NCBI GenBank assembly: GCA_020849105.1
Contig: JADLGW010000028.1
Location: 1-64,000 of the forward strand
Reading direction: 5' to 3'
DNA from: Phycisphaerales bacterium
GTDB lineage: Bacteria > Planctomycetota > Phycisphaerae > Phycisphaerales > UBA1924
Length of the DNA stretch: 64,000 nt
Shown here: positions 7,405 through 52,961 of the stretch, in pieces
Layout: each line of letters begins with the position of its first letter
How positions within the stretch are numbered: the stretch's first letter is position 1
Made by a program: the position numbers and the translations under genes
Notes under the pieces: model-generated
Databases searched by the model: none
What the model was told of the DNA's origin: nothing
The model's input: only the letters and a program-made list of their open reading frames with translations

Positions 7405-9642
7405 CTATGGCACGGGTTCGAGGCGAACGTCGAGCGTCGCGCCGCCCATGATCTCGAAGTACTCCACCCGCAGCACGGTCGGCTTGTTGCCGGGCGTCGC
7501 GTCAAACTCGGCACGGTTCTCGGCCGGGCCGTGCCAGGTCCAGTTGTCGATCACCGGCGTGCCGTTCACGAAGATCCGGATGCCGTCGTCGCTGCGCGTG
7601 ATGACGCGCCACCTGCCGGGCGGCAGGCTGACCGACGCGGTGGCGATGACGCCGAAATAATCGCCCCCGAAGCGGGCGGCTTTCACGGCGGGGTCGTCGA
7701 TCACGCCGCTGGGCCCGCGTCCGCCGAACGAGAAGTTGAGCCCCGGGAGTCTGGTGTGCACCGCACCGGGACCGGTCGCCAGCGCCCGCCACGCGGCCAG
7801 GTCCGGCGGGATGCGCGGACCCTCGGGGGTTTCCCGCGGCTCCGGCGCCGGCCAGGCGAACACAGCGGTGTCCCAGTCCGCCTTGATGAGGGTCCCGCTG
7901 AAGGCGGCGTTGTAATCGCCCTGCGCGACCTTCACGGAATACTCCGTGACGCCGTGCGGGGCGGCGAAGGTCAGTTGCCAGGGGGTGTCCGCGGCGTGCG
8001 GGGTCGGGGTGTCCTCGTGCCCGTTCACGACGGTCCGCACGCTCCGCGAATCGATCCCCGTGAACTCGAGCGTGCAGGTGTCGGAGTCGTGGTGGATGAC
8101 GCGGGCCAGCGGCGACCGGTGATCCCACGGGAACCAGTCGGTCATCACGATGTTCTCCCGCCCGGCGAGGTCCTTGCGCGCCCCTACCGGGCGCGTATCC
8201 CCCAGCGCCTCGTACGTCGGCGCCGCATAACTCACGGCGATGGGTGATTCGACGGGTGCCGAGCCCTGCGAGGCGTCGATCACCTTCCCGACGTTGGTGA
8301 ACGTGTTGCGAGCGGTGGTGGTCGCGTCGCAGTCGTGGAGCACGAGAGCCGTCTCGCCGCCCTCGAACGTGTTCTCGGCGATGAAGTTGTCCGTCGACGG
8401 CAGGCGGCGCGTGCCGCTGCCGCGATCGTTGGCGGAGACCCAGGGCATGTTGTCGTCGAGCCACTTGTCCTCGTCCCACCACAGGTGGACGCCGAACGAG
8501 TTGTTCCTGAAGGTGTTGCCGACGATCTGGTTGCCCGCCCCGTGCTCGATGTTCACCCCGCCGCGCTCGAGGCCGTAGCCCCTGTCGCCGTTGTCCGCGA
8601 AGAGGTTCTTGGCGATGAGCGTGTCCTGCGAGTACCCGCCCCACACGCCGCAGATCGCGTTGCCGACGACCGTGTTCCCGATGATCCGGTTGTCGAACGA
8701 GAATGTGAGTTCGATCCCGTGGGCCGGGGCATAGGAGAAATCGTTGTTCACGATCACGTTGCCGGAGTTGCCCAGCCCCTTGTAGTCGAGGGTGACGCCG
8801 GGCGGCGGCGGGTTCTGGGCGATCGCCTCCTTCCCCCCGAAGCCGAAGAACCCGTCCCCGCCGTGCGTCGCAGAGTTCTCCGCGATGATGTTGTTCCTGT
8901 TCTGCTCAAAGAACAGGATGCCGGCCGAGTCCTGCCCCCGGTTGTACACACCGTGGCTGTAGCCGCGGACGCAGAAGTCAAACGCGTTGCGGGTGATCGT
9001 GTTGCCCTCGCAGCGCCACATCGCCAGCCCCCACCCGGAGAGGAACGAGCAGTCGTTGTCGTAGACCCTGGATTCGCGCACGCGATCGAGGATGATGCCG
9101 TTCTGCCTGCGGCGCGCGGTGCAGTTCCTGATGGTGACGCCGCCCGATCGCTCGACCTGGATGCCCGCGCCGTAGTTGGTCCCCCACTGCCCCTGATCGT
9201 TCTCGTGCGGCCAGAGCCAGTCGGACTCGTCCTCGGCCTGGGGGGTGGACTTCAGGTGCATCGCGTAGCCGCCGGACACATCGCATGAATCGATGGTGAG
9301 TCCGTTGGCGTTCCTCGCCCGGATGCCGACGCGGAAGCCGTGGACGGCCGCGCCGCGCACCGCGACTCCCCCGTGCCCGTCGATCGCGATGCCGACGCCC
9401 TTCATCAGGTCCGGCGGCGTGCCCGGCGGGCAGCCCCACAGGACGGACCCGGGCGCAAACTCGACGGTGATGCCATCGGCGGCGACGTGCAGCACACCGT
9501 CGTTGTTGGCGTCGTCGATCACCGTGCCCGCGGGGATGACGACCCGGCATGAGCGGTCGATGGGTGTGTCGTCCCTCGTGACGATGATGGTGGGCAGGTC
9601 GGGATGGAAAAGGAGCGCGAGGGCAAGAACCGCGGGGATCAT
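7405..9642 (-). CDS. Secreted right-handed beta-helix protein with C-terminal PA14 domain
   Basis: A 745-residue protein with a short signal-like N-terminus (MIPAVLALALLF). Residues about 60-480 are a run of beta-helix coils of the NosD/pectate-lyase type, with many Asn/Val-rich turns (such as NNIIAENSATHGGDG and NQIVGNTFRNNSFGVHLWWD). After a linker, residues about 620-745 form a PA14-like carbohydrate-binding domain (GVIATASVSLPPGRWRVITR, SDDGIRIFVNGTPVIDNW). This suggests a polysaccharide lyase, epimerase or carbohydrate-binding surface protein; no catalytic residues could be assigned. Monocistronic; palindromic repeats lie just upstream. Confidence 0.85.
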   Translation of the reverse strand: MIPAVLALALLFHPDLPTIIVTRDDTPIDRSCRVVIPAGTVIDDANNDGVLHVAADGITVEFAPGSVLWGCPPGTPPDLMKGVGIAIDGHGGVAVRGAAVHGFRVGIRARNANGLTIDSCDVSGGYAMHLKSTPQAEDESDWLWPHENDQGQWGTNYGAGIQVERSGGVTIRNCTARRRQNGIILDRVRESRVYDNDCSFLSGWGLAMWRCEGNTITRNAFDFCVRGYSHGVYNRGQDSAGILFFEQNRNNIIAENSATHGGDGFFGFGGKEAIAQNPPPPGVTLDYKGLGNSGNVIVNNDFSYAPAHGIELTFSFDNRIIGNTVVGNAICGVWGGYSQDTLIAKNLFADNGDRGYGLERGGVNIEHGAGNQIVGNTFRNNSFGVHLWWDEDKWLDDNMPWVSANDRGSGTRRLPSTDNFIAENTFEGGETALVLHDCDATTTARNTFTNVGKVIDASQGSAPVESPIAVSYAAPTYEALGDTRPVGARKDLAGRENIVMTDWFPWDHRSPLARVIHHDSDTCTLEFTGIDSRSVRTVVNGHEDTPTPHAADTPWQLTFAAPHGVTEYSVKVAQGDYNAAFSGTLIKADWDTAVFAWPAPEPRETPEGPRIPPDLAAWRALATGPGAVHTRLPGLNFSFGGRGPSGVIDDPAVKAARFGGDYFGVIATASVSLPPGRWRVITRSDDGIRIFVNGTPVIDNWTWHGPAENRAEFDATPGNKPTVLRVEYFEIMGGATLDVRLEPVP

Positions 9643-9664
9643 GGTTGCAGTCTATGGGGCACCC

Positions 9665-9761
9665 CGACGGAGCCCGCGGCGGAAGCCGGGGGTTGACGGC
9701 GCAATGCTCCGACAGAGCCCCCGGCGGAAGCCGGGGATTGACCCGCTGCTCCCGCAGCGGG
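9665..9761. repeat. Two tandem palindromic units plus a hairpin upstream of serS
   Basis: Two 32-bp copies (9665-9696 and 9710-9741) match at most positions; the core is GAGCCCCCGGCGGAAGCCGG. A third hairpin (CCCGCTGC/GCAGCGGG, 9742-9761) follows. A related unit lies inside the regulator gene at 27394-27420, so this is a dispersed family, not a local structure. Confidence 0.75.
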
Positions 9762-9788
9762 CTCTGAAAGAGCTCGTACACTCCGCCC

Positions 9789-11324
9789 ATGATCGACCTG
9801 AAGCAACTCCGCGAGAACCCGCAGCGATTCATCGACGGCAGCCTCAAGAAGGGGATTGAGGCGGACATCCCGCGGCTGCTGGACCTGGACGCGCGGCGGC
9901 GGGAACTCACGACGGAGCGCGAGAGACTGCGGGCCGAGCAGGCGAAGGTCGAGAAGGAGATCGGGCCGCAGATCGGCAGGCTCGCCGGGGCGATGAAGAA
10001 GGCCCCGCCCGGCGAGCAGGCCGCCATGCAGACGCAACTCGACGAACTGAAGACGGGGCCGGCGGCGCTGAAGGCCCGTGGCGCAGCGCTGGAGGCCGAG
10101 ATCGCCCGGATCGAGCCGGGGCTGCGCGAACTCCTCCTCACCGTCCCGCTGCCGCCGGACGATGACGTACCCGTCGGCGCCGGGAGCGAGGGGAATGTCG
10201 AGATCCGCCGCTGGAACCCGCCCGGGTTCGACGCCGCTCGGGGATTCGAGGCGAGCCGCGGCTTCACGCCCAAGTCGCACCTGGACCTCGTGCGCGACCT
10301 GGGGCTGGCCGACTTTGAGCGCGGCGTCAAGATGGCTGGGTCGCGCAGTTACATCCTTACGGGCGACGGCTTCCGCCTGCACCAGGCGGTGCTGCGGTAC
10401 GCCTTCGACTTCATGGTTGAGAAGCACGGCTTCCGCGCGATGTCGGTCCCTGTGCTCGTCCGCGAGGAGGCGATGGTCGGCACCGGCTTCTTCCCCGCCG
10501 GGCGCGAGCAGGCGTACGAAGTCTTGGGTGGCCCGGCGCTCCGCGCCGGTTCTTCGGAGGTTGCGGAATCCGGGAAGAGGTCAGGGGATGTTCCAAGCCC
10601 GGAATCCGCGGCGCAGTCGCGGGCCAACCCGAACGACCTGTTCCTCACCGGCACGGGCGAGGTCGGGCTCATGGGCATCCACCAGGGCGAGATCCTGGAC
10701 GAGGCAACGCTGCCGCGGAAGTACGTCACCGTCTCCACATGCTTCCGGCGCGAGGCGGGGGCCGCGGGCAAGGACACCGCGGGCCTCTACCGCATCCACC
10801 AGTTCGACAAGGTCGAGCAGGTGGTGATCTGCCGCGCGGACGAGGCCGAGAGCCGGGCGTGGCACAAGCGGATGATCGGGTACGTCGAAGAACTGCTGCA
10901 ATCGCTCTCGCTGCCCTACCGGCTGCTCCAGTGCTGCACCGGCGACCTGGGCCCGAAGAACGCGGATATGGTGGACATCGAGTGCTGGATGCCGGGACGT
11001 GATCCGGGTAGATCGGCTCTCCGAGCCGACGGAGCGGCGCCGGATGTCGGCAGGGAGAGCCGACCTACGCAGGGCGGCTACGGCGAGACGCACTCGGCGT
11101 CGCGCCTCTACGACTACCAGTGCCGGCGCCTCAACATGCGCTACCGGGCGGGCGGCGAGCAGGGCAAGGGCGAGACCGTCTTCTGCCACTCGCTCAACAA
11201 CACCGTGGCCGCGAGCCCGCGCATCCTGATCCCTCTGCTGGAGATCCACCAGCAGCGCGACGGCACGGTGAGCATCCCCGCGCCCCTGCGCCCCTACATG
11301 GGGGGCAGGAGCGTGATCGCGTAG
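9789..11324 (+). CDS. serS: Seryl-tRNA synthetase with two in-frame palindromic insertions
   Basis: Charges tRNA-Ser with serine. The start MIDLKQLRENP is typical, and residues about 30-110 form the long antiparallel coiled-coil arm. The class II catalytic core follows: motif 2 near STCFRREAGAAG..GLYRIHQFDKVE, and motif 3 near the C-terminus (LNNTVAASPRILIPLLE). At 511 residues it is about 80 longer than usual. The excess sits in two blocks: residues about 247-280, before DLFLTGTGEVGL, and about 406-427, after IECWMPG. Both coincide with palindromic DNA repeats (10527-10629 and 11008-11068) that keep the frame. Conserved motifs on either side are intact, so the enzyme is probably active. Confidence 0.95.
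   Translation: MIDLKQLRENPQRFIDGSLKKGIEADIPRLLDLDARRRELTTERERLRAEQAKVEKEIGPQIGRLAGAMKKAPPGEQAAMQTQLDELKTGPAALKARGAALEAEIARIEPGLRELLLTVPLPPDDDVPVGAGSEGNVEIRRWNPPGFDAARGFEASRGFTPKSHLDLVRDLGLADFERGVKMAGSRSYILTGDGFRLHQAVLRYAFDFMVEKHGFRAMSVPVLVREEAMVGTGFFPAGREQAYEVLGGPALRAGSSEVAESGKRSGDVPSPESAAQSRANPNDLFLTGTGEVGLMGIHQGEILDEATLPRKYVTVSTCFRREAGAAGKDTAGLYRIHQFDKVEQVVICRADEAESRAWHKRMIGYVEELLQSLSLPYRLLQCCTGDLGPKNADMVDIECWMPGRDPGRSALRADGAAPDVGRESRPTQGGYGETHSASRLYDYQCRRLNMRYRAGGEQGKGETVFCHSLNNTVAASPRILIPLLEIHQQRDGTVSIPAPLRPYMGGRSVIA
10527..10629. repeat. Palindromic element inside serS (copy 1)
   Basis: The left arm starts GGTGGCCCGGCGCTCCGCGC and continues CGGTTCTTCGG; the right arm is GGAATCCGCGGCGCAGTCGC then GGGCCAACC. 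The arms are imperfect reverse complements. The same two arms recur at 27139-27202 inside another gene. The reading frame is kept and the insert encodes a Gly/Ser/Pro/Ala-rich peptide. Confidence 0.8.
11008..11068. repeat. Palindromic element inside serS (copy 2, different family)
   Basis: A 61-bp imperfect inverted repeat: the left arm GTAGATCGGCTCTCCGAGCC mirrors the right end GGGAGAGCCGACCTAC. It is in frame within serS, encoding an Arg/Asp/Gly-rich segment where relatives have none. Confidence 0.75.
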
Positions 11325-20438: not shown

Positions 20439-20463
20439 GGGTACCCCGCCGCTCCGCGGCGGG
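20439..20463. repeat. GGGTACCCCGCCGCTCCGCG repeat
   Basis: A short palindrome (CCGCCGCTCCGCGGCGG core) next to GGGTACC. Similar units occur at 29967-29986 and, inverted, at 47541-47563; the core is shared with the in-gene elements at 10527 and 27139. Confidence 0.6.
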
Positions 20464-24795: not shown

Positions 24796-25419
24796 ATGTT
24801 CACGGGGATTGTTCAGGCCAGGGGGAGGGTGGCGGCGGCGATGGCCTCGCCGTCGGGCCTGCGCCTGGCGGTGGACCCCGGCGGGTGGACGCACAAGCAC
24901 TCGCCCGGGGACTCGATCTGCGTGAGCGGGGTCTGCCTGACGCTCGCGGAGCCGCCGGTGTCCGGCGACCTGATCTTCAACGCCGTTCCCGAGACGCTGT
25001 CGAAAACGACGCTCGCGGACCTGCGGCCGGGGTCGATGGTGAACCTGGAGCCGGCGCTGCGGGTCGGCGATCCGCTCGGCGGGCATTTCGTCCAGGGGCA
25101 TGTGGACGGGGTGGCGGTGGTCGAGGACCTGTGCACCCGCGGCGATCACCGGGTGACGATCCGCCCGCCGCCGGACCTGATGCCGTATGTGACGCCACGC
25201 GGGTCGGTGACGCTCGACGGCGTGTCGCTGACGATCGCGCGGGTAGACCCGGCGGGTGGCGTGTTCGACGTGGCACTGATCCCCACGACGCTCAACCTGA
25301 CGACCCTCGGGTCGCTGGCGCCCGGCTCGCGCGTGAATCTCGAAGCCGACGTGCTCGCCCGGACGATGGTCCACTGGCTGCGGCATTACGGTGGCACCGG
25401 TCTCCAGACCGGTGGTTAG
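24796..25419 (+). CDS. ribE: Riboflavin synthase, alpha subunit type
   Basis: Converts two molecules of 6,7-dimethyl-8-ribityllumazine to riboflavin. It shows the two tandem lumazine-binding barrels: MFTGIVQARGRV and SVCLTLA-type sequence in the first, GDPLGGHFVQGHVDGVAVV at the junction, and VTLDGVSLTIARV in the second. The ATG 24796 start gives the canonical MFTGIV N-terminus. The last nine residues (GGTGLQTGG) and the stop codon lie inside a palindromic repeat (25390-25446), so the native C-terminus has been replaced or extended. No other rib genes are adjacent. Confidence 0.95.
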   Translation: MFTGIVQARGRVAAAMASPSGLRLAVDPGGWTHKHSPGDSICVSGVCLTLAEPPVSGDLIFNAVPETLSKTTLADLRPGSMVNLEPALRVGDPLGGHFVQGHVDGVAVVEDLCTRGDHRVTIRPPPDLMPYVTPRGSVTLDGVSLTIARVDPAGGVFDVALIPTTLNLTTLGSLAPGSRVNLEADVLARTMVHWLRHYGGTGLQTGG

Positions 25420-25446
25420 GTGGCACCGGTCTCCAGACCGGTGGTT
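25390..25446. repeat. Tandem palindromic repeat at the end of ribE
   Basis: Two identical 28-bp copies (25390-25417 and 25419-25446), each with the perfect palindrome ACCGGTCTCCAGACCGGT. The first copy supplies the last codons and most of the stop codon of ribE. Confidence 0.85.
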
Positions 25447-26058: not shown

Positions 26059-27573
<1,515 letters not shown>

Positions 27574-29041: not shown

Positions 29042-29929
29042 TCACGGACACCCGAGCGCAAACTTGGTCGTGAAGCACCCGAAGTCGGCGAGATTGAGGA
29101 CCGTGTCGGCGTTGCAGTCGGCGTACGGATCGCCGAGCGCAAACTTCGTTGTGAAGCACCCGAAGTCGGCAAGGTTGAGCGCGCCGTCGCCGTTGCAGTC
29201 CGGGTAGCACGGGGCAGGCATCCACGCCAGCCCCTGGATCGCGCCCGAAGTCCCGGTGATCGCGCCCAGGCTGGTGACCACCCCCGTGACCGTGCTGATC
29301 GTGACCAGCCGGTTCGGGTTGACCGTGGTGGCGTAGAGCAGGCCGGTGGAGGAGTCGATGTCCAGCCCGCGCCAGATGCCGGGGAACGGCATCACCGCCA
29401 GTTGGCTGGTCTGGCCGCTGGGGGCGTGGATCTTGTAGACCGCCTCCGTCGCGCCGTCGCTGAGGCCGAAGAGCGTCTGGCTCGTGGTGTTGTACCCCAG
29501 GCCCTCGATATCCGTCGCCCCGGAAATGGTGGACAGCAGCGCGGACCCACCTGTCGTCAGGTTGTATTCGTGCAACTCGTTGGCGTTGTTGTCGGACACG
29601 AGCAGCCGCGGCCCCACGGGGTCGAAGGCAAGGCCGTTGGCGTTATTGGTGAACAGCCCCGAGGCGATGAGGGACGTCGCCCCCGTCGCCGGGTTGATCC
29701 GGTACAGCCCGCCGTCGCCGGGGTTGAGGGCGTAGAGCGTGTTGGTCGCGGGGTCCGCGGTCAGGCCGTTCAGCGGCCCCGTGCCGACCGGTCCGACCAC
29801 CGTCGCGACGAGGGTCGCGGGGTCGATCTTTACGAGTTGGTTCGTCCCGATGTTGACGCCGTACAGGGTGCCCTGCGCGGCAGCGACGGACGCCGCGGTG
29901 AGCAGCACACCGATCATGGCCCTGGTCAT
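29042..29929 (-). CDS. Secreted propeller-like protein with GC-type dockerin tail
   Basis: 295 residues: a signal peptide (about 1-20, MTRAMIGVLLTAASVAAA), a beta-propeller of repeated units (LYGVNIGTNQLVKIDPAT, LYALNPGDGGLYRINPATG, LLYATTVNPNRLVTIST), then two dockerin-like loops (CYPDCNGDGALNLADFGCF and YADCNADTVLNLADFGCF) ending TKFALGCP. It has the same plan as the left-edge gene. ATG 29929 is preceded by GGAGGACCACC. Its stop lies 3 nt from the stop of the convergent phosphatase gene, with no terminator between them. Confidence 0.88.
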   Translation of the reverse strand: MTRAMIGVLLTAASVAAAQGTLYGVNIGTNQLVKIDPATLVATVVGPVGTGPLNGLTADPATNTLYALNPGDGGLYRINPATGATSLIASGLFTNNANGLAFDPVGPRLLVSDNNANELHEYNLTTGGSALLSTISGATDIEGLGYNTTSQTLFGLSDGATEAVYKIHAPSGQTSQLAVMPFPGIWRGLDIDSSTGLLYATTVNPNRLVTISTVTGVVTSLGAITGTSGAIQGLAWMPAPCYPDCNGDGALNLADFGCFTTKFALGDPYADCNADTVLNLADFGCFTTKFALGCP

Positions 29930-47398: not shown

Positions 47399-47540
47399 GC
47401 GTTGAACTCCTGTTTGACCCGCCACAGCATCGGCACCGAGGGGGTGCAACGACGGTCCCCCACGGTTATTTCAGAATACCGGCAGGCCGGCCGGGCAGGT
47501 CGTCTCTCCGAATCAACGGCGGGGCATGTCGGCCCCGGGC

Positions 47541-47563
47541 CGCCGCGGAGCAGCGGGGTACCC
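47541..47563. repeat. CGCCGCGGAGCAGCGGGGTACCC repeat (inverted family member)
   Basis: The reverse complement of the repeat type at 20439 and 29967. It lies immediately upstream of the oxidoreductase start at 47573 and may contribute to its leader. Confidence 0.55.
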
Positions 47564-48800: not shown

Positions 48801-49535
48801 ATGCGATGCCGATGCAGCGTCGCCGTTCTCGCCCTCTCGATGGGGGCGACGACCGGGGCCCAGATCGTCAATGGTGATTTCGAGACCGGGAGCCTGACGC
48901 CGTGGTCGATCGGTTTCACGCCGAACGGCGCGACCATCTTCCAACTCGTCGAATCAATCGATATCGACGGTCCCGGGCCGTTGTCGCCAAGCAACGCCGC
49001 GCGGTTCGGCGTGGGCAACGCGGCGCCGCCGAACCAACCGAACCAGGGCATCCTGGTGACACAACTGGTCGCGCTCACGGGCGGGGTGACCTACACGATC
49101 CGGTTGGACTACGCGGCGGTCGTCCAGATCGGCGGGCTGCCCAACAACGACGGCGGTCGGTTCTCGATCATCGTGGACGGAGTGCCGCTCGTCAGCGTCG
49201 CGACCGGGCTCACGCTTCCGACCATCCCGCACTATGGGTCGCTCTCGACGCCGTTCATGCCGCCGACGTCGGGCACCTATTCGGTCGGCGTCATGATCGC
49301 GCGGAACTTCCTGGCCCCCAATGACCTCTCTCAGTATGTGGACAACTTCTCGCTCGGCACCGCGACCTGCTACCCGGACTGCAACGGCGACGGCGCGCTC
49401 AACCTTTCGGACTTCGGGTGCTACCAGACAAGGTTCGCGCTGGGCGAGCCCTACGCCGACTGCAACGGGGACGGCGTGCGGAATCTTGCCGATTTCGGAT
49501 GCTTCCAGACGAAGTTTGCGCTCGGGTGCCCGTAG
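48801..49535 (+). CDS. Secreted GC-type dockerin protein (paralogue of 52221-52961)
   Basis: 244 residues: signal peptide (about 1-20), a beta-sandwich domain of the choice-of-anchor type (QIVNGDFETGSLTPWSIGFT, DIDGPGPLSPSNAARFGVGN, GVTYTIRLDYAAVVQIGG) like PEP-CTERM/CBM-type jelly rolls, and two dockerin-like loops ending TKFALGCP. More than half of its residues match the gene at 52221 along the whole length, so the two are recent duplicates. ATG 48801 follows GGGGAGACGCA. The likely role is extracellular or surface binding; the partner is unknown. Confidence 0.88.
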   Translation: MRCRCSVAVLALSMGATTGAQIVNGDFETGSLTPWSIGFTPNGATIFQLVESIDIDGPGPLSPSNAARFGVGNAAPPNQPNQGILVTQLVALTGGVTYTIRLDYAAVVQIGGLPNNDGGRFSIIVDGVPLVSVATGLTLPTIPHYGSLSTPFMPPTSGTYSVGVMIARNFLAPNDLSQYVDNFSLGTATCYPDCNGDGALNLSDFGCYQTRFALGEPYADCNGDGVRNLADFGCFQTKFALGCP

Positions 49536-52220: not shown

Positions 52221-52961
52221 ATGCAACCCAAGTTCAGCGTAGCCATTCTCGCCCTCGCTCTGGCGGGAGGGACGGCCGGGGCCCAGGTCGTCAATGGAGA
52301 TTTCGAGACGGGGAGCCTCGATCCGTGGGCGATCGGGTTCACGCCCAACGGGGCGACAAGCGTGCAGACCGTCGAGGTGTTCGACATCGACGGGCCGGGG
52401 CCGCTGGCGGACAGCCAGGCGGCGGTGTTCGGAGTCGGCAACGCCGCGACGCCCAACCAGCCCAACCAGGGCATCGAGATGACGCAGTCCCTGGCGCTGA
52501 CCGGCGGCGTCGCGTACACGATCAAGTTTGATTACGCCGCGACCCGCATCTCCGCCGGGAACAACGCCGACGGCGGGCAGTTCGCCATCATCGTGGACGG
52601 CACGTCGCTCACCAGCGTCGCCACGGGCTCCACCAGTGCCACGAACCCGCACTACGGCAACCTGTCCACGGTGTTCACCCCGCCCTCGTCGGGCAACTAT
52701 GTGGTGGGCGCGCGGATCGGACGCAACTTCCTGCCGCCGGGCGACCTGTTCCAGCACGTCGACAACTTCTCGGTCGACGGCGGCCCGGCCCCCTGCTACC
52801 CGGACTGCAACGGCGATTCCGTGCTGAACCTGTCGGACTTCGGCTGCTTCACGACGAAGTTTGCCCTCGGCGACCCGTACGCCGACTGCAACGGGGACAC
52901 CGTGCTGAACCTGTCCGACTTCGGCTGCTTCACGACGAAGTTCGCGCTGGGATGCCCGTGA
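52221..52961 (+). CDS. Secreted GC-type dockerin protein (paralogue of 48801-49535)
   Basis: 246 residues with the same layout as the gene at 48801: signal peptide, jelly-roll-like domain (QVVNGDFETGSLDPWAIGFT, DIDGPGPLADSQAAVFGVGN, GVAYTIKFDYAATRISAGN) and two dockerin-like loops (CYPDCNGDSVLNLSDFGCF, YADCNGDTVLNLSDFGCF), ending KFALGCP. ATG 52221 is preceded by AAAGGAG. It has its own promoter upstream and a terminator downstream (53051-53075), so it is an independent transcription unit. Confidence 0.9.
   Translation: MQPKFSVAILALALAGGTAGAQVVNGDFETGSLDPWAIGFTPNGATSVQTVEVFDIDGPGPLADSQAAVFGVGNAATPNQPNQGIEMTQSLALTGGVAYTIKFDYAATRISAGNNADGGQFAIIVDGTSLTSVATGSTSATNPHYGNLSTVFTPPSSGNYVVGARIGRNFLPPGDLFQHVDNFSVDGGPAPCYPDCNGDSVLNLSDFGCFTTKFALGDPYADCNGDTVLNLSDFGCFTTKFALGCP

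Follow-up and report, generated by a model that had tools for sequence, protein, structure and literature searches.

Introduction

REPs are extragenic by name. The GTAG REPs described by Di Nocera et al. (2013; PMC3733652), with Planctomycetes named among their hosts, are called mostly intergenic, intragenic REPs being accepted as members; they form head-head dimers, and most Opitutus GTAG-20 elements carry GTGG. The same study described REPs that extend known genes in frame by 20-30 aa, tRNA synthetases and UvrA included, as well as two inserts in one gene, and placed the rickettsial RPE-4 and RPE-6 in CGTC-tagged families. No Y1 association is reported for CGTC repeats. On single-stranded DNA, TnpA-REP enzymes recognise a hairpin headed by GTAG and cleave at a nearby CT or CA, or at CC when the head is GTGG (PMC8266576), and REPs in frame inside tnpA-REP genes have also been noted, in a study that set unusually long fusion proteins aside (PMC6006769).

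Here we analyse a seryl-tRNA synthetase (SerS) gene of a Phycisphaerales bacterium (assembly GCA_020849105.1), which lies in a 64,000-nucleotide stretch of contig JADLGW010000028.1, the whole of which is called the window below. Both palindromes inside this gene are assigned to REP families, which were followed through the genome and its relatives (genome numbers preceded by G).

Results

Two palindromes lie in frame inside serS

The SerS protein matched its profile over the full length with the class II motifs intact (TIGR00414, 339 bits against a cutoff of 302), and PF00587 and PF02403 were also matched. Within the gene we found two DNA palindromes, both in frame, one headed by GTGG (insert 1) and the other by GTAG (insert 2) (Table 1). 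The arms, the hairpins, the open frame and the single copy of SerS thus confirm the original prediction, made from the window alone, that two palindromic elements are carried in frame by this gene. Its further claim that the class II motifs were spared is borne out by the profile score and by an alignment to Thermus thermophilus SerRS (1SER), which placed site 1 between residues 215 and 218 and site 2 at ~338-340, both between conserved blocks and outside motifs 2 and 3.

The arms of insert 2, of 23 nt each, are 87% complementary and separated by a 15-nt loop, and they give a DNA hairpin with z = -4.1. The left arm of insert 1 is exact, and the hairpin of this whole insert reaches a z of only -2.1. 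As had been predicted, insert 1 shares both arms with the element in an NtrC-type gene of the window, the right arm being degenerate in SerS, and the spacer between them measures 58 nt in SerS versus 18 there. Because of this long spacer and its native-like middle, insert 1 may consist of two hits flanking native codons rather than one unit, as far as can be read from the sequences.

Two further sets of repeats were observed in the window. Upstream of serS (about 9600-9780) lie repeats whose translation is SPRRKPGV/ID (GGAAGCCGGG type), which are probably a further REP-like family. The segments 1-140, 29042-29218, 48842-49533 and 52265-52961 contain repeats that reach 277 nt in length, are 70-90% similar and encode NGDG-type (dockerin-like) motifs.

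Table 1. Coordinates of serS, of the REP elements and of the nested Y1 genes (window positions unless a contig is given)
Feature	Position	Strand	Remarks
serS, seryl-tRNA synthetase	9789..11324	+	511 aa; sole copy found in genome
Insert 1 left arm, family A REP, GTGG head (GGGTGGCCCGGCGCTCCGCGCCGG)	10526..10549	+	Frame reading LGGPALRAG
Insert 1 spacer, 58 nt	10550..10607	+	VAESGKRSGDV; resembles native loop IPESQRQSADD of nearest relative G020
Insert 1 right arm, degenerate	about 10608..10631	-	Matches right arm of NtrC-type insert; reading ..ESAAQSRANP
Insert 2, family B REP doublet, GTAG head	11008..11068	+	Arms 11008-11030 / 11046-11068; in-frame reading GRSALRADGAAPDVGRESRPT
Family C REP half-site (GGGTACCCCGCCGCTCCGCGGCGG)	20439..20462	+	Outside genes
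Family D, two tandem half-sites	25390..25443	+	Family D flanks ValS-nested RAYT, same genome
Family A doublet in NtrC-type sigma-54 activator gene	27138..27203	+	In frame; hairpin z = -6.4
Family C REP half-site	47540..47563	-	Outside genes
Y1 gene nested in ValS	C42:82670-86560 (L189/L265)		ORF about 1479 aa, in frame
Y1 gene nested in RdgB/Ham1	C60:28443-29708 (L191/L295)		ORF 462 aa, in frame

Both inserts belong to abundant REP families

The genome-wide count of both families returned 82 half-sites for the A/C pattern and 75 for the B pattern, many of them in frame in other genes, while the reversed controls returned 0 in either case. In the window alone, 8 half-sites of A/C type were observed against 0.41 expected and 3 of B type against 0.02 expected. 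The elements consist of a head, GTAG in family B (GTAGGTCGG...) and GTGG in family A (GTGGCCCGG...), located 5' of the palindrome, followed by a hairpin arm, and they are arranged in inverted pairs with variable spacers, of which family B has 23 clusters, and in some tandems. Four tandem B arms, 42 nt (14 codons) apart and in frame, were seen at C48:130370-130518 (L113), within the gene of a UbiD-type menaquinone decarboxylase (VGSESRPTPESAIG repeats). The two families had been described as unrelated, which is overstated, as both are headed hairpins with a common CTCCG core (GTGGCCCGGCGCTCCGCGCCGG, GTAGGTCGGCTCTCCGAGCCGAC) and they are mixed in composite arrays, such as A-B-A in IleS.

By head and inverted-pair layout, the SerS inserts are of the REP doublet type (BIME/REPIN anatomy). 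The hairpin arm expected of a REP is present, insert 1 fitting through its left arm, and the mostly extragenic location is found for family C, not for B doublets. A likeness to the Rickettsia palindromic elements (RPE) had also been proposed. It stands for the functional outcome, palindromes in frame in essential genes being common to these inserts and to the Rickettsia RPE and Wolbachia WPE, and fails for the family, as the heads here are those of REP doublets, GTAG or GTGG, instead of the CGTC tag of RPE-4 and RPE-6 (PMC3733652). The hosts of the Rickettsia and Wolbachia elements are also low-G+C and intracellular. On the head tetranucleotide we rejected a Rickettsia-type family, and we give next to no credence to the inserts being RPE members or deriving from a transfer of them.

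The insertion sites are empty in related SerS proteins

Next, we aligned related SerS proteins of the same family or order. Inserts 1 and 2 were absent from all 30, in which both sites are short empty loops. In about 30 relatives, loop 1 typically reads QAYHI-EESKR-GGG-YDLFLTG(TGEV) and loop 2 WMPGR-GExxxDGxPTG-AYGETH. Since the relatives measure 462-492 aa, and the nearest one (G020) 481, compared to 511 here, this SerS is longer by about 30-45 residues net, which corrects the earlier figure of about 80.

These data bear on the possibility that the inserts represent old protein loops, specific to the lineage, whose palindromic look comes from G+C-rich codon use. The genome is about 70% G+C and the length of loop 1 varies among relatives (L052-L055), as such an origin would have it, but identical DNA recurs in unrelated genes and in intergenic DNA with no match in the reversed controls, the hairpin score of insert 2 is strong, and the relatives' loops are empty. 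It had been set beforehand that an old protein feature would show itself by the presence of the insert in every related SerS with the DNA palindrome missing; no relative has the insert, and both inserts fall in high-copy palindrome families. An old protein loop was rejected on this multi-copy DNA identity outside SerS, and we consider it very improbable.

Two relatives carry other REPs at the same place. Loop 1 of the G008 SerS contains two tandem copies, one imperfect, of GACAGCTCGGAGAGCTGTCCTACC, a GTAG REP that differs from family B by paired stem changes, and loop 1 of G014 contains one GTGG REP (reverse of CACCGGCTGGAAGCCGGTGCCAC). As these REPs are different, loop 1 of SerS received REPs on separate occasions in three genomes. 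The exact B doublet was found in only one other organism among the named genomes, SAT56 (G021), which carries a B doublet in frame in ValS near KMSKS. The doublet search returned no exact inverted doublet from G099, G087 or G008, indicating that the numerous B-like half-sites of these genomes occur singly, in tandem or as variants. Such half-sites are plentiful in G008, G093, G087 and G099 (56-100 per genome), and variants such as GTAGGTCGGATCTCCGAGCCGAC predominate in G008 and G093.

Inverted doublets of family B are mostly in frame inside conserved genes

To describe the pattern across the genome, we surveyed the surroundings of the listed element copies, which had been found by pattern, so that degenerate copies are missed, and called the coding frames by a simple codon-usage score. 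Strictly in-frame clusters inside genes numbered 35 of 94, plus MetG by eye, a count to be read knowing that 53% of random 60-bp window intervals also pass the frame caller. The families differ: 19 of the 23 B inverted doublets are in frame versus 2 of 25 family C clusters (p = 1.8e-7), and only 2 of 17 single B arms are (p = 1.4e-5 against the doublets). The 19 in-frame doublets are read as RSALRAD in 17 cases and as VGRLSEP in 2, and never in the phase that holds TAG. Since most single arms lie between genes and most whole doublets within them, we infer that copies between genes decay freely, while selection on the reading frame maintains those inside genes.

The carriers are conserved genes, and profile matches flank many of the inserts on both sides. 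They comprise the aminoacyl-tRNA synthetases (aaRS) SerS (2), CysS, IleS (2), ThrS, LeuS, GltX, GlnS, TyrS and MetG, and also SucD, SdhA, MnmG, TruA, RimO (2), UvrA, RarA, TopoVI-B, MetH, AsnB, PutA, Kbl, GspE/PilB, NuoF, a UbiD-type decarboxylase, MqnC, an E2 subunit and the NtrC-type regulator. The aaRS account for 9 of 33 carrier genes (p about 4e-13, on an assumed background of 22 aaRS per 2900 genes) and for 6 of 18 among the B doublets.

This over-representation of aaRS genes, together with the recurrence of REPs at one SerS loop in three genomes, would suit inserts that are selected for SerS function (stability, tRNA contact or mRNA-hairpin regulation) and not merely tolerated. However, the REP families and peptides at that loop differ, and REPs also occur in unrelated enzymes and are absent from most relatives, all of which points to tolerance, and we regard selection for function as unlikely. 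An assembly artefact could be suspected in a metagenome-type genome whose draft is in 61 contigs, but this one genome alone has dozens of in-frame junctions that are independent of each other, and similar junctions recur in many separately assembled relatives, which makes this explanation extremely improbable.

Y1 transposase genes are nested in ValS and RdgB

As in REPINs/RAYTs (PMC3116915) and TnpA-REP systems (PMC8266576, PMC6006769), the inverted REP pair would be the mobile unit here, and Y1 transposases occur in the genome and in the family. The genome, 94% complete, has 7 Y1_Tnp (PF01797) matches, but arms of family A or B flank none of them, and for this reason the SerS elements are filed as REP-type doublets and not as REPINs of a known RAYT. 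A second difference from REPINs/RAYTs is that two Y1 genes are nested in frame inside ValS and RdgB (Table 1). In both nested ORFs, Pfam domains of the host enzyme stand on either side of Y1_Tnp, the match in RdgB being just below the cutoff in a whole-protein scan (22.6 versus 23 bits), and the HUH (DHVH) and Tyr (YIxNNP) motifs are present. Inverted arms bound 7 of the 8 nested inserts examined, with arm sequences that differ between genomes. Those of the ValS-nested Y1 belong to family D (GGTGGCACCGCTCTCCAGAGCGGTG), which has about 70 half-sites in the genome and whose inverted pairs are in frame in 11 of 18 cases, one of them being a second doublet elsewhere in ValS.

The same residence was observed in relatives. 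In a survey of 150 genomes of the family, such an insert occurs at one fixed loop of ValS in roughly 25 (G148, G134, G085, G147, G165, G053 and G055 among them), and at a fixed loop of RdgB in about 19 of the 144 that gave a match (including G127, G084, G017, G014 and G099), most others having a plain RdgB. Where the nested gene is missing, the loop is mostly continuous or just slightly expanded. The ValS inserts of G053 and G120 are of a different Y1 class, which means at least two entries into this site. In a quick FastTree tree of sampled sequences, where the free-standing RAYTs were represented only by the top-scoring ones, the RdgB inserts formed a clade among the ValS inserts, and on these sequences the nested Y1 genes are provisionally a separate lineage.

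Inteins are mobile enzyme genes kept in frame at one conserved site of an essential protein. The ValS-nested Y1 appears similar in its in-frame residence at a fixed site and different in that no splicing domain was seen in the nested Y1 inserts, which presumably stay in the protein. Searching the open-access literature, we found no prior description of Y1/RAYT genes in frame inside ValS or RdgB.

Discussion

The reading that we hold with considerable confidence is that the SerS inserts are REP palindromes copied into the gene, probably by a Y1/RAYT (TnpA-REP) enzyme, of which the in-frame copies in loops survived and were then protected from decay. Families A (GTGG) and B (GTAG, as an inverted doublet) would have been copied into serS on single-stranded DNA. 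Their heads, hairpin arms and inverted pairs are what TnpA-REP enzymes recognise (PMC8266576), and the typical flanks of the elements, CTGG-GTAGG...CCTAC-CCAG, would suit cuts of the TnpA-REP type. Copies that broke serS would have been lost, whereas the survivors would lengthen the protein without a frameshift, at two hairpin turns in surface loops away from the class II motifs, where the longer enzyme, if translated and nearly neutral, should still work. Any partial deletion in serS would then shift the frame, so that selection would preserve the element, while intergenic copies, by contrast, would decay to single arms.

SerS is therefore a further example of a published phenomenon, in-frame REPs in genes (Di Nocera 2013, PMC3733652), and what sets this genome apart is the intensity of the phenomenon together with the nested transposase genes. 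The elements resemble those published in their head, their head-head pairs and their in-frame inserts in tRNA synthetases, and differ in that B doublets are here mostly in frame in conserved genes and that many aaRS are hit in one genome.

A broader proposal, whose chances we judge to be evenly balanced, is that the REP/RAYT complement of this Phycisphaerae family is largely translated, in-frame DNA inside essential genes. A Y1 (RAYT-like) lineage would have settled in fixed loops of ValS and RdgB, with at least two independent entries given the two Y1 classes at the ValS site, and the host enzyme would contain the translated product of the whole REP-flanked gene as an internal stretch, a refuge like that of inteins but with no splicing. 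In this lifestyle the SerS inserts would be the non-autonomous part.

One REP family that lies mostly in frame in conserved genes would supply essential enzymes with new protein segments, and the in-frame REPs amount to a natural insertion scanning of tolerant loops. Whether REPs persist by taking shelter in genes that the cell cannot lose thereby becomes a testable question. If the Y1 genes nested in ValS and RdgB are expressed, these mobile elements would follow a strategy of making their transposase an internal domain of an essential protein.
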